Shown: positions 31,165 to 39,014 of the stretch, piece after piece
How the letters are laid out: each line of letters opens with the position of its first letter
Position numbering within the stretch: the stretch's first letter is position 1
Assembly: GCA_030535975.1 (NCBI GenBank)
Contig: JAUNQW010000007.1
Coordinates: 1-64,000 of the forward strand
Reading direction: 5' to 3'
DNA from: Atopococcus tabaci
Lineage (GTDB): Bacteria; Bacillota; Bacilli; Lactobacillales; Carnobacteriaceae_A
DNA length: 64,000 nt
Translations under genes and position numbers: made by a program
The notes under the pieces: generated by a model
What the model saw: only the letters and a program-made list of their open reading frames with translations
Told to the model about the DNA's origin: nothing
Database searches by the model: none

Positions 31165-32217
31165 TTATTCTTCAATTACATTGTCTGGAGCAGACCCAGC
31201 AAAAGGATCAACCGCCGGAACCGGAGGAGTAGATTCTGGTGCGGCTGATTGACTTGTTTCTGGCTGAGTTCTGGGTGGTTGAGTGGTAGTTGGCTGAGTT
31301 CTCGACGGTTGAGTTCTTGGGGGCTGAGTGGTTGGAGCCTGAGTTCTAGGCGGCGTCGGAGTTGAGGGACGAGTCGAACGAGACTCAGCCGGCTGGGCTG
31401 GCTGAGATGTCTCTTCTTCATCTTCATCAATCTCTTCCTCTACCGCATCTTCTTCTGGTTGATTGTTTAATACAGCAGAAATAACTGCCGCTGTATCCGT
31501 TGCACCTAGGCTGATCAGCTCATTGTAATAAGATTGTAACTCTCCCACAGAAAGATCTGTATTCACACTGCCATCAGCATTCAAAACTAAGTTTCTAATA
31601 GCATCTATACGTGCCTGGTTAGTATCTTCTTCTGTATGCTCACTCTCAAGACCTGTCGCAGCTACAAAAGCTTCATAAATCGCCATATATTTTTCATAAA
31701 ACACAGGCTTGATTTCTTCCAAACTTTGAAGCTGCATCATAAAGTCTGAAGGTAATTCACTTTCGTCAATTACTATTTGAGTTTCCACCTCAAATCGATC
31801 AGCAAGCACTTGTTTCACATTATACATCGTCTCGATAATCCCATACTCTTTTTGCAGCTCTCGAACTTGGTCAACTTCTTCTTCCATTTCGAGTTGGTCC
31901 AGCATTTCTTCTAAATCTTCCTTCAAGGTCTCTTCTGCTTCAAATTTTTCAAGGGAAACTTCTTCCTCATCTAAATTTACATCAGGCTCTTCATCTAAGT
32001 TTTCTTCATCTAATTGTACTTCTTCATAGAGAGATGTCACACGTTCTTCTAAAGCAGTAATCTCTTCTGTATAAGAAGTTGTTTCCTCTTCAGCAAGCTG
32101 AGAAACTTCTTTCACTTCACTAGTTGAATTTGTATCGTTATTATTACACCCGGCTAATCCAAACAGGGACAAGGCCGTCACAGTAAAAAACAATCTTTTA
32201 AGGGTTATATTATCCAT
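31165..32217 (-). CDS. lipoprotein with acidic coiled coil and Pro/Thr/Gln tail
   Basis: 350-residue predicted lipoprotein. The signal peptide ends in lipobox LFGLAGC. Residues about 30-150 are very acidic and helical, residues about 190-245 form a small mixed domain, and another Glu/Asp block lies near 250-265. The last 80 residues are a low-complexity tail with repeats of the type TQPPRTQP. Such tails often span the cell wall. I recognise no functional family. The TTACAATG region gives a plausible start, though the ribosome binding site (AAAGGATTTACT) is moderate. Confidence 0.8.
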   Translation of the reverse strand: MDNITLKRLFFTVTALSLFGLAGCNNNDTNSTSEVKEVSQLAEEETTSYTEEITALEERVTSLYEEVQLDEENLDEEPDVNLDEEEVSLEKFEAEETLKEDLEEMLDQLEMEEEVDQVRELQKEYGIIETMYNVKQVLADRFEVETQIVIDESELPSDFMMQLQSLEEIKPVFYEKYMAIYEAFVAATGLESEHTEEDTNQARIDAIRNLVLNADGSVNTDLSVGELQSYYNELISLGATDTAAVISAVLNNQPEEDAVEEEIDEDEEETSQPAQPAESRSTRPSTPTPPRTQAPTTQPPRTQPSRTQPTTTQPPRTQPETSQSAAPESTPPVPAVDPFAGSAPDNVIEE

Positions 32218-32799: not shown

Positions 32800-32836
32800 C
32801 AAAAAAATCAAAAGTAAAGTTACTTTTGATTTTTTA
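32800..32836. terminator. terminator of the atp operon
   Basis: ATCAAAAGTA and TACTTTTGAT flank loop AAGT, with A and T tracts on both sides. The atpC stop codon lies within the 3' arm on the plus strand, so the gene ends inside its own terminator. Confidence 0.85.
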
Positions 32837-33269
32837 ATTTAGCTGTTTTTACATCAATTTGATTAATAGCATGCTTTAGCTCTATTCTTGCACGGGTATA
32901 AGCCGCCGTATCTTTTTTCATTAAAGCCGTTTCCATTTCAGATTCCGCTTTTTGCATCTCTAATCGTACGTCAGCTTCGTCAATATCCCTGGCTCGTATA
33001 GCAAAACTGGCAACAATATTAACAGTATTATTATGGACTTCCATAATTCCCCCGTTAACTGCGATATAAGCTTCCTTATCTTCTTGATTTTTTTTGTTTA
33101 ATGTAACCTTGACAGCTCCAGTATCTATAGGAGTAACTAAGGAAATATGGTGAGGTAAAATACCAATTTCTCCACTGGGTGTGTCTGCAGTAACAAACGA
33201 TGCTTGATTAGAAAATATGAGCCCATTCGGGGCGTACACATTAACTTCTAGATATGTTTGATTTGTCAT
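32820..33269 (-). CDS. atpC: F-type ATP synthase epsilon subunit
   Basis: 149-residue rotor subunit: beta-sandwich N-terminal domain (SGEIGILPHHISLVTPI) and a C-terminal helical hairpin from about residue 90 that inhibits hydrolysis in many bacteria. Slightly longer than usual because of a Lys-rich C-terminal extension. It lies two bases after atpD. Confidence 0.94.
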   Translation of the reverse strand: MTNQTYLEVNVYAPNGLIFSNQASFVTADTPSGEIGILPHHISLVTPIDTGAVKVTLNKKNQEDKEAYIAVNGGIMEVHNNTVNIVASFAIRARDIDEADVRLEMQKAESEMETALMKKDTAAYTRARIELKHAINQIDVKTAKLKNQK

Positions 33270-33271
33270 AC

Positions 33272-35673
<2,402 letters not shown>

Positions 35674-35685
35674 TAGTACTCACCC

Positions 35686-37197
35686 CTAAGTATGAAGAAC
35701 AGAAATATCGAAGCTTTCAATGAAATCTAATATAATTTGACGCATCTTTTCCTCATCATCAAAACTCCCTACCGTCAACAAACGATTCATTTCACCTGGG
35801 TAGGTTAAATTGAGATAGTCATAAAGCTCTTCTTCGAATCGATGCAGGTCTTCTACAGGTATGCCCTCTAAGAGATCTTCAGTTAAAGCATAGAGTATCA
35901 TGATTTGTTGATTGGCAGGAAGAGTGTGGTGAGCAGCCTGCTTTAGAATTTCTACTGTCGCTTCTCCTTTTTTCAATCGTCGCTGGGTATCTTCGTCAAG
36001 ATCAGCACCAAATTGAGCAAAAGCTTCCAGCTCTCTGTAAGCAGCCAAATCAATACGTAAAGTACCTGATACTTGTTTCATTGCTTTCAATTGAGCTGAT
36101 CCACCCACACGGGAAACAGATAATCCTGCATTAATAGCGGGTCTGAAGCCGGAGTTAAATAAATCTTGTTCTAAGAAAATTTGTCCATCAGTGATAGAAA
36201 TAACATTGGTCGGGATATAAGCAGATATATCTCCTGCCTGTGTCTCAATAATAGGCAAAGCGGTTATAGAGCCGCCTCCCTTTGACTCACTTAATTTGGC
36301 AGCCCGTTCCAATAAGCGGGAATGGGTATAGAAGACATCACCAGGATAAGCCTCACGTCCAGGCGGTCTTTTCAACAGTAAACTCATCTCACGATAAGCT
36401 GTAGCCTGCTTACTTAAATCATCATAGACAATAAGTACATGACGACCGTTATACATGAACTCCTCTGCCATAGCAGTGGCAGCATAAGGAGAAATATAAA
36501 GCAGACTCGAAGTTTCTGAAGCACTTGCTGAGACAATAATTGTATGACTCATAGCTCCATGTTTCTCTAAAATTGTAGCGATGTTCTTAACGGTGGATGC
36601 TTTTTGACCGATTGCAACATAAATACAAAGAACATCTGTATTTTTTTGATTAATAATAGTATCGACGGCTAAAGTTGTTTTTCCAGTCTTCCTATCACCG
36701 ATGATTAATTCTCTTTGACCTCGTCCAATTGGAACAAGCGAGTCAATCGCTTTAATTCCTGTCTGCAGAGGTTGATTAATACTTTGACGATCCATAATAC
36801 CCGGGGCTTCAAACTCTACAGGGCGAGTATTAGATGTTCGAACAGATCCTTTACCATCTAAAGGATTCCCCATTGGATCAACCACTCGTCCAAGTAAAGC
36901 TTCTCCTACAGGAACTTGCATAACATCTCCAGTCCGGCGGACCAAATCACCTTCTTGAATATCTTTATATTCTCCTAAGATAATAATCCCTATCGTGTCT
37001 GCCTCTAAATTCTGAACCATGCCTAAAGAACCATTCGAAAATTCAATCATCTCACCATACATGGCATCGTATAAGCCAGTAACATTAGCGATACCATCAC
37101 CAACATTATCGATAATACCAATCTCTTCAATATGATTGGCAACATCAAACTGGTTAATCTGGTCACTCAGTCTTTGAGTTACGGTATTGTTACTCAT
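35686..37197 (-). CDS. atpA: F-type ATP synthase alpha subunit
   Basis: 503-residue non-catalytic head subunit. Walker A GDRKTGKT at residues 167-174. The N-terminal segment ([23 protein letters not shown]) diverges from the usual AEEISALIKQQIENYES pattern. In the known enzyme this helix is one of those that dock the delta subunit, and delta is truncated in this operon. The rest of the protein is standard. Confidence 0.97.
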
Positions 37198-37211: not shown

Positions 37212-37559
37212 TTATTCACTAATTAAATGATGTCGCATATCTTCCAGCTTACGTAGAAGGCTGTTGTCATAATAATAAGAACGGCTTTGTATACGTATAC
37301 CAGCAATTAATCTCGCGTCAACAATATATTGAATATCATCTTGTTCAAAAGTTATTATCCGTTCCAATGCTCTAAGAACTACTTCTTTGTCCTGCTGGCT
37401 TAATGGATGTGCGCTGGTAATTCGTATGACCGGTGACTCTTTTTGTTCTTTCAGTCTCTCTTGTCCAGCTTCAATTTGCTGTCTTTGCTTCAAAAGAATT
37501 TCAAGAATATCACTTTCATTCATCTCATTACTTTGATTATTCTTCATCTTGATCAGCAT
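37212..37559 (-). CDS. atpH: truncated F-type ATP synthase delta subunit
   Basis: Only 115 residues at most, against about 175-180 for usual AtpH/OSCP. The C-terminal half is present: [18 protein letters not shown] matches the usual 'V.SA.PL...' strand and [20 protein letters not shown] the 'GG.RI....DGS' segment. The six-helix N-terminal domain, which binds the alpha subunits at the top of the head, is missing, replaced by about 40 residues of charged helix. The preceding atpF is full length and overlaps the start, so no lost exon or frameshift is hidden. Other ATGs at 37547 and 37523 are possible. Confidence 0.85.
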
Positions 37560-38046
37560 CCAATTCCAAGACGAGGTCTTTAATAAGCTGCTGATGATCT
37601 TCTATATCAACTTCTCTTTGTAAGATTTGACCTGCAATATTGACAGACAGCTGAGCAACTTCGTCCTGCATAGCAATCATCATTTCTTGACGATCATGCT
37701 CGATAGCTTCTTCTTCTCTTTTGCGTTTTTGAGCAATCTCCATCTCAGCTGCTTCTACAGCTAACATTTTTTCACGTTCAATTTTTTTGTTTGTCTCCTG
37801 CATAATAGCAGTAGCATCCAGCTTGGCCTTCTTACGGTCAGCTTGAGCTTCTTCCTGCAAAAACCGAGCTTTTTCCTGCGATACACTGGCTTGGTTAATA
37901 TCATCTTTTATCCGATTTTCACGTTCTTCTAATATCCCGTTAATAGGTTTCCAAGCAAACTTATAGACAATTGCAAGGAGTAAGATAAACGAGATTAAGG
38001 TCATCAGAAAATGACCAAGGCCAGTCTGTTGTAAAACTTCTAGCAC
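37537..38046 (-). CDS. atpF: F-type ATP synthase b subunit
   Basis: 169-residue stator subunit with one N-terminal membrane helix (about 12-30) and a long charged coiled coil to residue 150. Typical size. A single b gene is present, so a homodimer is expected. Its 3' end overlaps the start of the shortened atpH. Confidence 0.95.
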   Translation of the reverse strand: MLEVLQQTGLGHFLMTLISFILLLAIVYKFAWKPINGILEERENRIKDDINQASVSQEKARFLQEEAQADRKKAKLDATAIMQETNKKIEREKMLAVEAAEMEIAQKRKREEEAIEHDRQEMMIAMQDEVAQLSVNIAGQILQREVDIEDHQQLIKDLVLELDADQDEE

Positions 38047-38064: not shown

Positions 38065-38283
38065 TTAGCTGAACAGTAACATGAAGGCAATAACCGCTGC
38101 CATGATAGGAATTGCCTCAATGAGACCTACCCCAATAAACATCGTTGTTCTAATCTTACTTTCCATTTCTGGTTGGCGTGCCATTGACTCCAAAGCTTTT
38201 GAAATAACCATCCCGTTACCTATTGCCGAACCAAATGCTGCAATCCCTACTGCAAATGCTGCTGCTAATCCATTTAAATCCAT
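38065..38283 (-). CDS. atpE: F-type ATP synthase c subunit, H+ type
   Basis: 72-residue two-helix hairpin that forms the rotor ring. The ion-binding carboxylate is E56 in GLIEAIPI. The Na+ signature of Na+-type c subunits (a Gln in helix 1 and a Ser-Thr pair after the Glu) is not present, so proton coupling is predicted. The polar loop is ARQPE. Confidence 0.96.
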
Positions 38284-38294
38284 TTTATTTTCTC

Positions 38295-39014
38295 CTATTC
38301 CTCTTCTTCTAATGTAATTTTATCCTTTAAATAAACAGTACTTAATGTGACAAAAATATAAGCTTGAATCACTCCAATAAATAAGGAAAAAGTCTGCCAT
38401 ATCATTTGGAGTGGGATTCCTGCTAACCAAGTTACTAAGCCCAGCGAGTTACCCATTGAAGCTATAAGGGCTAATAAAATTTCACCAGCAAATATATTAC
38501 CAAATAAACGCATCGCTAAAGTAAATAAATTTAGCAGTTCTTCACCAATTACAATCGGAAAACCGATTACGGGACTAAAATAGGTCTGCTTAAAATAGCC
38601 ACCAAAACCTTTTTTTCGGATACCTAACAAATGAGAAATGATGTTCATTACGAGGGCCAAAGAAAAAGCAACGGCAGGATCAGCCGTTGGACTTTTCCAT
38701 AAGGAGACATGATATGGCTCCACTAAAAAGGGTAATCCAAGTAGGTTAGCTACAAAAACAAAGAGAAATAAGGTCATCATAATCCACACATAAATCGGTT
38801 CAGCAGCTTTGCCTAAATTATCATTGACAATCCCTTTAATAAAATCCACCAAGCTTTCAAGTACAAGTTGGGGTTTTCCTGGACTCTCCACCGATAATTT
38901 TCGGGTTAAGAGTATAGAGGCGATTAATACAACAATCAAAGTTCCTGCCGTTGCAATTAGCGTGTTAAAGCTAAAGGTTAGGCCAAATATTTCAATAAAT
39001 TTTGTTTCAGCCAT
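38295..39014 (-). CDS. atpB: F-type ATP synthase a subunit
   Basis: 239-residue stator membrane subunit with about five to six helices. The essential arginine lies in LAMRLFGN (R169), on the helix facing the c-ring. First gene of the operon; no atpI is found upstream, only a 220-base leader with two hairpins. AAAGAAGG precedes the ATG. Confidence 0.96.

Follow-up and report, generated by a model that had tools for sequence, protein, structure and literature searches.

The atp operon of the window and its short delta subunit

The window, the whole 64,000-nucleotide stretch that was analyzed, carries an atp operon on its minus strand in the order a, c, b, delta, alpha, gamma, beta, epsilon. All subunits other than delta are intact (Table 1).

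Table 1. Features of the atp operon in the window
Feature	Coordinates	Strand	Length	Basis
atpB, a subunit	38295..39014	-	239 aa	Pfam ATP-synt_A, 3.8e-50
atpE, c subunit	38065..38283	-	72 aa	ORF; up to 94% identity to g42 relatives
atpF, b subunit, full length	37537..38046	-	169 aa	Pfam ATP-synt_B, 3.5e-23
atpH, delta subunit without the N-terminal domain	37212..37559	-	115 aa	ORF and Pfam OSCP
Short amphipathic motif NESDILEIL in the tail preceding the C-domain	37494..37520	-		Window copy of the clade motif E..[LI]L..[IL]
Delta C-terminal domain, b-binding part	37215..37427	-		C-domain profile
atpA, alpha subunit	35686..37197	-	503 aa	Pfam
Alpha N-terminal helix, shortened and remodelled, retained across the clade	37123..37197	-
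atpG, gamma subunit	34747..35673	-	308 aa	Pfam
atpD, beta subunit	33272..34735	-	487 aa	ORF and similarity to relatives
atpC, epsilon subunit	32820..33269	-	149 aa	ORF and position

The initial annotation described AtpH as having at most 115 residues and only its C-terminal part. We found that the first ATG gives 115 residues, that two later in-frame ATGs give 111 or 103, and that the match to Pfam OSCP, which passes the cutoff (E = 5e-11), pairs residues 29 to 112 with only positions 89 to 172 of the 172-position profile. The frame measures 129 codons from stop to stop, and so the N-terminal domain (NTD) of about 105 residues cannot fit in it. The distance from the c stop to the alpha start is likewise 867 nt, compared with about 1,030 to 1,170 nt in most operons that retain the NTD. 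Of the features of PF00213, the window protein has the b-binding C-domain, and its gene is flanked by atpF and atpA in an intact F1Fo operon. The protein does not have the six-helix NTD, which a dedicated profile failed to match (E = 2 to 3), as the annotation had said. An alignment of the relatives' sequences matched the delta subunit of the Bacillus PS3 structure 6n2y (E = 1.9e-7). Thus, AtpH is a delta subunit that has lost the six-helix NTD, encoded in an F1Fo-ATPase operon that is complete in every other respect.

A predicted lipoprotein of 350 residues is encoded next to the operon at positions 31165 to 32217; its middle is long and rich in Glu, and its C-terminal tail is rich in Pro and Thr.

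The NTD is not encoded elsewhere in the genome

A short AtpH could in principle reflect a frameshift or codons missing from the assembly between atpF and atpH. Nothing speaks for such an artifact beyond the state of the assembly of the window genome (G000), which has 1.33 Mb in 57 contigs and is 85% complete. The full-length atpF overlaps the start of atpH by 23 nt, as the annotation had noted in arguing against a frameshift, and the relatives have the same state. The short AtpH recurs in separately assembled genomes of about 15 genera, some of them complete chromosomes and some from named isolates. We therefore rejected a frameshift or assembly gap; the relatives refute an artifact, and we assign it a negligible probability.

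The NTD could also be present as a separate protein encoded elsewhere. A first contig search with the window AtpH protein as the query gave no match. The whole assembly of G000 contains no second OSCP match, and thus no other full-length atpH, the finding that would have overturned the annotation. A six-frame search of G000 with a profile of the NTD alone gave no match either. We ran the NTD profile on 20 genomes, with positive controls at E values of 1e-29 to 1e-33. The NTD was absent from the complete, single-contig genomes of the mini-delta relatives G005, G061, G085, G096, and G114, and G108 likewise gave no match. Weak matches appeared in a few relatives (G092, 1.3e-4; G094, 0.0055; G103, 0.018; G087, 0.029), but these sit inside open frames of 229 to 645 residues and at differing profile positions. 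A separate NTD gene is thus already largely refuted, and we consider it very improbable. The same profile also detected the domain in G109 and G084, in the second F-type operon of each. In these two genomes (contigs L109 and L110), a divergent F-type operon with a full-length delta occurs beside the mini-delta operon.

Loss of the NTD is a conserved trait of a clade

We collected the operons of relatives and measured the delta gene in each, in the window family (f1) and in a neighboring family (f5). An NTD profile was built from other Lactobacillales and then iterated. This profile split the f1 and f5 deltas of this operon type into two classes, with E values of about 1e-13 or better and above 0.2, while a C-domain profile matched all 101 of 101 deltas. 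The NTD is present in genera g20, g30, g31, g44, and g46 and in four of the six g41 species. It is absent from g1 (the window genus), g6, g26, g28, g32 to g34, g36 to g40, g42, g43, and g45 and from the other two g41 species. Named genera without it are Abiotrophia (g26), Dolosicoccus (g32), Facklamia (g34), Fundicoccus (g36), Globicatella (g38), and Vaginisenegalia (g45), all from one of the two neighboring families.

The NTD-less deltas of the clade range from 88 to 185 residues. The longest, from Abiotrophia, is of normal length, but a disordered tail stands where the NTD would be; length alone therefore hides the loss. Among the 295 Lactobacillales and 250 Bacilli genomes sampled, weak delta scores were confined to f1 and f5, and every genome of the Bacilli sample except that of the window had a delta score of 1e-24 or better. 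By these scores, delta appears to be full length elsewhere in the sampled Lactobacillales and Bacilli. The reading of a reduced delta was thus correct in that the loss is real; the trait is not peculiar to one genome and belongs to a large clade.

Several genomes depart from this arrangement in other ways. In f1, 19 of 27 genomes have no F-type a subunit whatsoever, and the window operon and that of G005 group with different f5 genera. Together, these two observations suggest transfer or repeated loss. Genus g13 of f5 is missing both delta and the F-type a subunit in 15 of 15 genomes. G020 encodes a 250-residue b-like protein with a delta-C-domain-like end and has no separate delta gene (L041:8546-9295); this operon is probably N-ATPase-like. 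The delta and alpha genes of G094 (L099) lie 385 nt apart, and the gap contains a 66-codon ORF.

The delta tail carries a short motif, and the alpha N-terminal helix is remodelled

The tail that precedes the C-domain is variable across the clade except for a short motif, [YFHN]E..LL..[IL], that occurs once or twice. There are two copies in Abiotrophia, Globicatella, and Fundicoccus and one in Facklamia and in the window. The description of this delta as a C-terminal part alone is accurate for the C-domain but incomplete, because the tail is not empty and holds these conserved motifs in most members. When the pattern is loosened to E..[LI][LIVM]..[ILVMF], 16 of 25 tails contain it, whereas 2,000 shuffles gave 1.0 on average and never more than 6; these shuffles are descriptive, since the motif had been spotted beforehand in the same sequences and related sequences are not independent. 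No recognizable motif was found in the tails of genera g28, g39, g40, and g43 or of the Dolosicoccus metagenome-assembled genome G083, and so the motif cannot be essential everywhere. Some tails are merely 11 to 31 residues long.

The alpha N-terminal segment had been said to diverge, and it does differ from the usual one. However, the helix is not lost. It is present throughout the clade, 2 to 5 residues shorter and rewritten from (A)EEIS.LIK.QI..Y to L..RLR.QI.QF, with its hydrophobic positions retained (for example, Ile at -23 in 26 of 27). Because the helix is kept with a new conserved pattern, it still binds something. The tail motif and the change in the alpha helix are both compatible with a contact between two helices that substitutes for the NTD bundle. 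We also considered the delta motif as a mimic of the alpha N-terminal helix. The resemblance was weak (mean z of 1.3 versus 0.3 for controls, with many comparisons nonsignificant), and this idea was dropped.

A predicted model of the Abiotrophia delta has a well-formed C-domain (pLDDT 73 to 85) and helices over both motifs, with most of the remaining tail at a pLDDT below 50. For docking models, the stop codon between delta and alpha was read as a residue, in Abiotrophia (G060/L083) and in a control with an intact NTD (G130/L096). No docking could be read from the Abiotrophia model (pTM 0.35), nor did the control show any sign of the known docking; what the modeling supports is limited to the fold of the C-domain and the helical state of the motifs.

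NTD loss arose at least twice, and the mini-delta is under purifying selection

We built a tree of 66 operons from the a, beta, and gamma subunits and alpha minus its N terminus. Of these operons, 31 lack the NTD, and the state clusters on the tree, with 3 changes versus a shuffled mean of 22. This is far beyond what chance or assembly error would give. Twenty-eight NTD-less operons, from about 15 genera in two families, group in a single clade with full support; the window operon belongs to it, with g42 as its nearest neighbor. The loss is conserved in this old clade and does not represent a defect. The g41 operons of G108 and G109 represent a separate loss, independent of the main clade. Their short tails still resemble both ends of full-length g41 proteins, and a single group of all NTD-less operons of this type was rejected (AU P = 3e-5). 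The loss therefore arose at least twice. The divergent F-type operon of G006 encodes a 149-residue delta with a partly eroded N-domain (L046:3782-4228), a possible third, partial loss.

The mini-delta is under purifying selection. In most within-genus pairs dN was clearly lower than dS, with dN/dS of about 0.03 to 0.26 (0.03 and 0.12 in pairs from g34 and g42), and in most of these pairs constraint was stronger on the C-domain than on the tail. Tail evolution is rapid in pairs that have diverged further, and the pair G093/G095 is so close that its few changes do not allow a dN/dS reading. Alpha is also under purifying selection.

These results bear on whether the NTD simply decayed with nothing replacing it. 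These fermenters might need the enzyme for no more than modest ATP-driven proton pumping and might for that reason tolerate a looser stator, and both the wide variation of the tails, down to the shortest, and the repeated loss would fit such a relaxation. Purifying selection on delta and alpha does not, nor does conservation of the tail motif far above chance. In addition, sampled genomes of other Lactobacillales families, likewise fermenters, have kept the NTD. We consider simple decay improbable.

How the stator may be held without the NTD

In Bacillus PS3, the delta C-domain touches one alpha subunit and the NTD touches two (PMC12229609), and in Escherichia coli the stalk contacts the three alpha N-terminal helices through different interfaces (PMC5214741). 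The mini-delta resembles the delta subunits of PS3 (6n2y) and E. coli in its homologous C-domain, its operon position between b and alpha, and its partners. It differs from them in having no NTD, the source of two of the three alpha contacts. With the NTD lost in about 15 genera, the stator of these enzymes must be attached, and the number of stators perhaps set, in a way that differs from other known bacterial ATP synthases.

We favor, with a probability of roughly 55%, a functional stator that is anchored by the delta C-domain together with a short tail helix on the alpha N-terminal helices. The delta-alpha interface, the role of the motif, and the number of stalks are what we infer. The C-domain would still hold the b dimer by its tips, as usual, and would dock straight onto one alpha N-terminal helix, a contact that already exists in PS3 (PMC12229609). 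The two former NTD contacts with the other alpha helices would be replaced by weaker, flexible ones, in which the short amphipathic helix (E..LL..I) of the disordered tail packs on alpha N-terminal helices remodelled to match it. The NTD wedge on the threefold axis would be gone, and therefore nothing within delta would restrict the enzyme to one stalk. An engineered precedent supports this mechanism: fusing an NTD-less delta to alpha yielded an enzyme that works and is coupled (PMC12229609). However, that enzyme relied on the covalent delta-alpha fusion, which is absent here.

Other systems with altered deltas differ from the mini-delta. The engineered PS3 deltaDN-alpha protein (9jc1) and the natural deltaDN-alpha fusion reported in Acidaminococcus fermentans (cited in PMC12229609) also lack the NTD and retain the C-domain, but in them delta is covalently fused to alpha. 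Here, delta is a free subunit with tail motifs of its own, in another lineage and with at least two losses. In the window, delta and alpha have their own stop and start codons and lie in different frames, and they are unfused in all relatives examined. The N-ATPase, a Na+/H+ F-type enzyme, lacks a delta gene, and its b is longer and resembles the E subunit (PMC5706428). Both are natural F-type enzymes without a full delta, but the window operon has a delta gene, a b of ordinary length (169 aa), and the ordinary gene order; an N-ATPase identity was rejected on this gene content. In mycobacteria, delta is fused to b and retains its NTD. The stator delta is thus altered there too, but here the NTD is gone and delta is unfused. 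A free, natural NTD-less delta appears to be undescribed: we found none in the literature searched, which covered few subscription journals, and this agrees with the initial annotation, according to which a mini-delta is not known from Lactobacillales.

A single stator is regarded as a universal feature of ATP synthase, enforced by the N-domain of delta/OSCP. Natural, unfused, and repeated loss of this domain in culturable bacteria makes stator attachment without it directly testable, along with natural variation in stalk number and the tuning of H+/ATP by stalk number besides c-ring size. The g41 sister species with and without the NTD provide a natural before-and-after comparison.

Since the NTD limits bacterial ATP synthase to one peripheral stalk, as Ueno et al. 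(2025) concluded (PMC12229609), its loss may permit multi-stalk enzymes. Two or three mini-deltas would then sit on three equivalent alpha N-terminal helices, each with a b dimer and an a subunit, raising H+/ATP. We regard such an enzyme as possible, at clearly less than even odds. The PS3 enzyme whose delta lost its NTD and had its C-domain fused to alpha forms up to three stalks, with an H+/ATP of 5.8 (PMC12229609), and the one common alpha N-helix pattern across the clade is expected if all three helices face the same partner. However, delta and alpha are unfused, and each genome has a single copy of a, b, and delta in the operon, so extra stalks would need more translation. The tails with two motifs could equally hold a single delta on two alphas. 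In G060, G061, and G082 (L083, L092, and L078), the TAG stop of delta abuts the ATG of alpha in the same frame, which leans toward the multi-stalk arrangement; read-through of this one stop codon would give a delta-alpha fusion resembling the engineered one.
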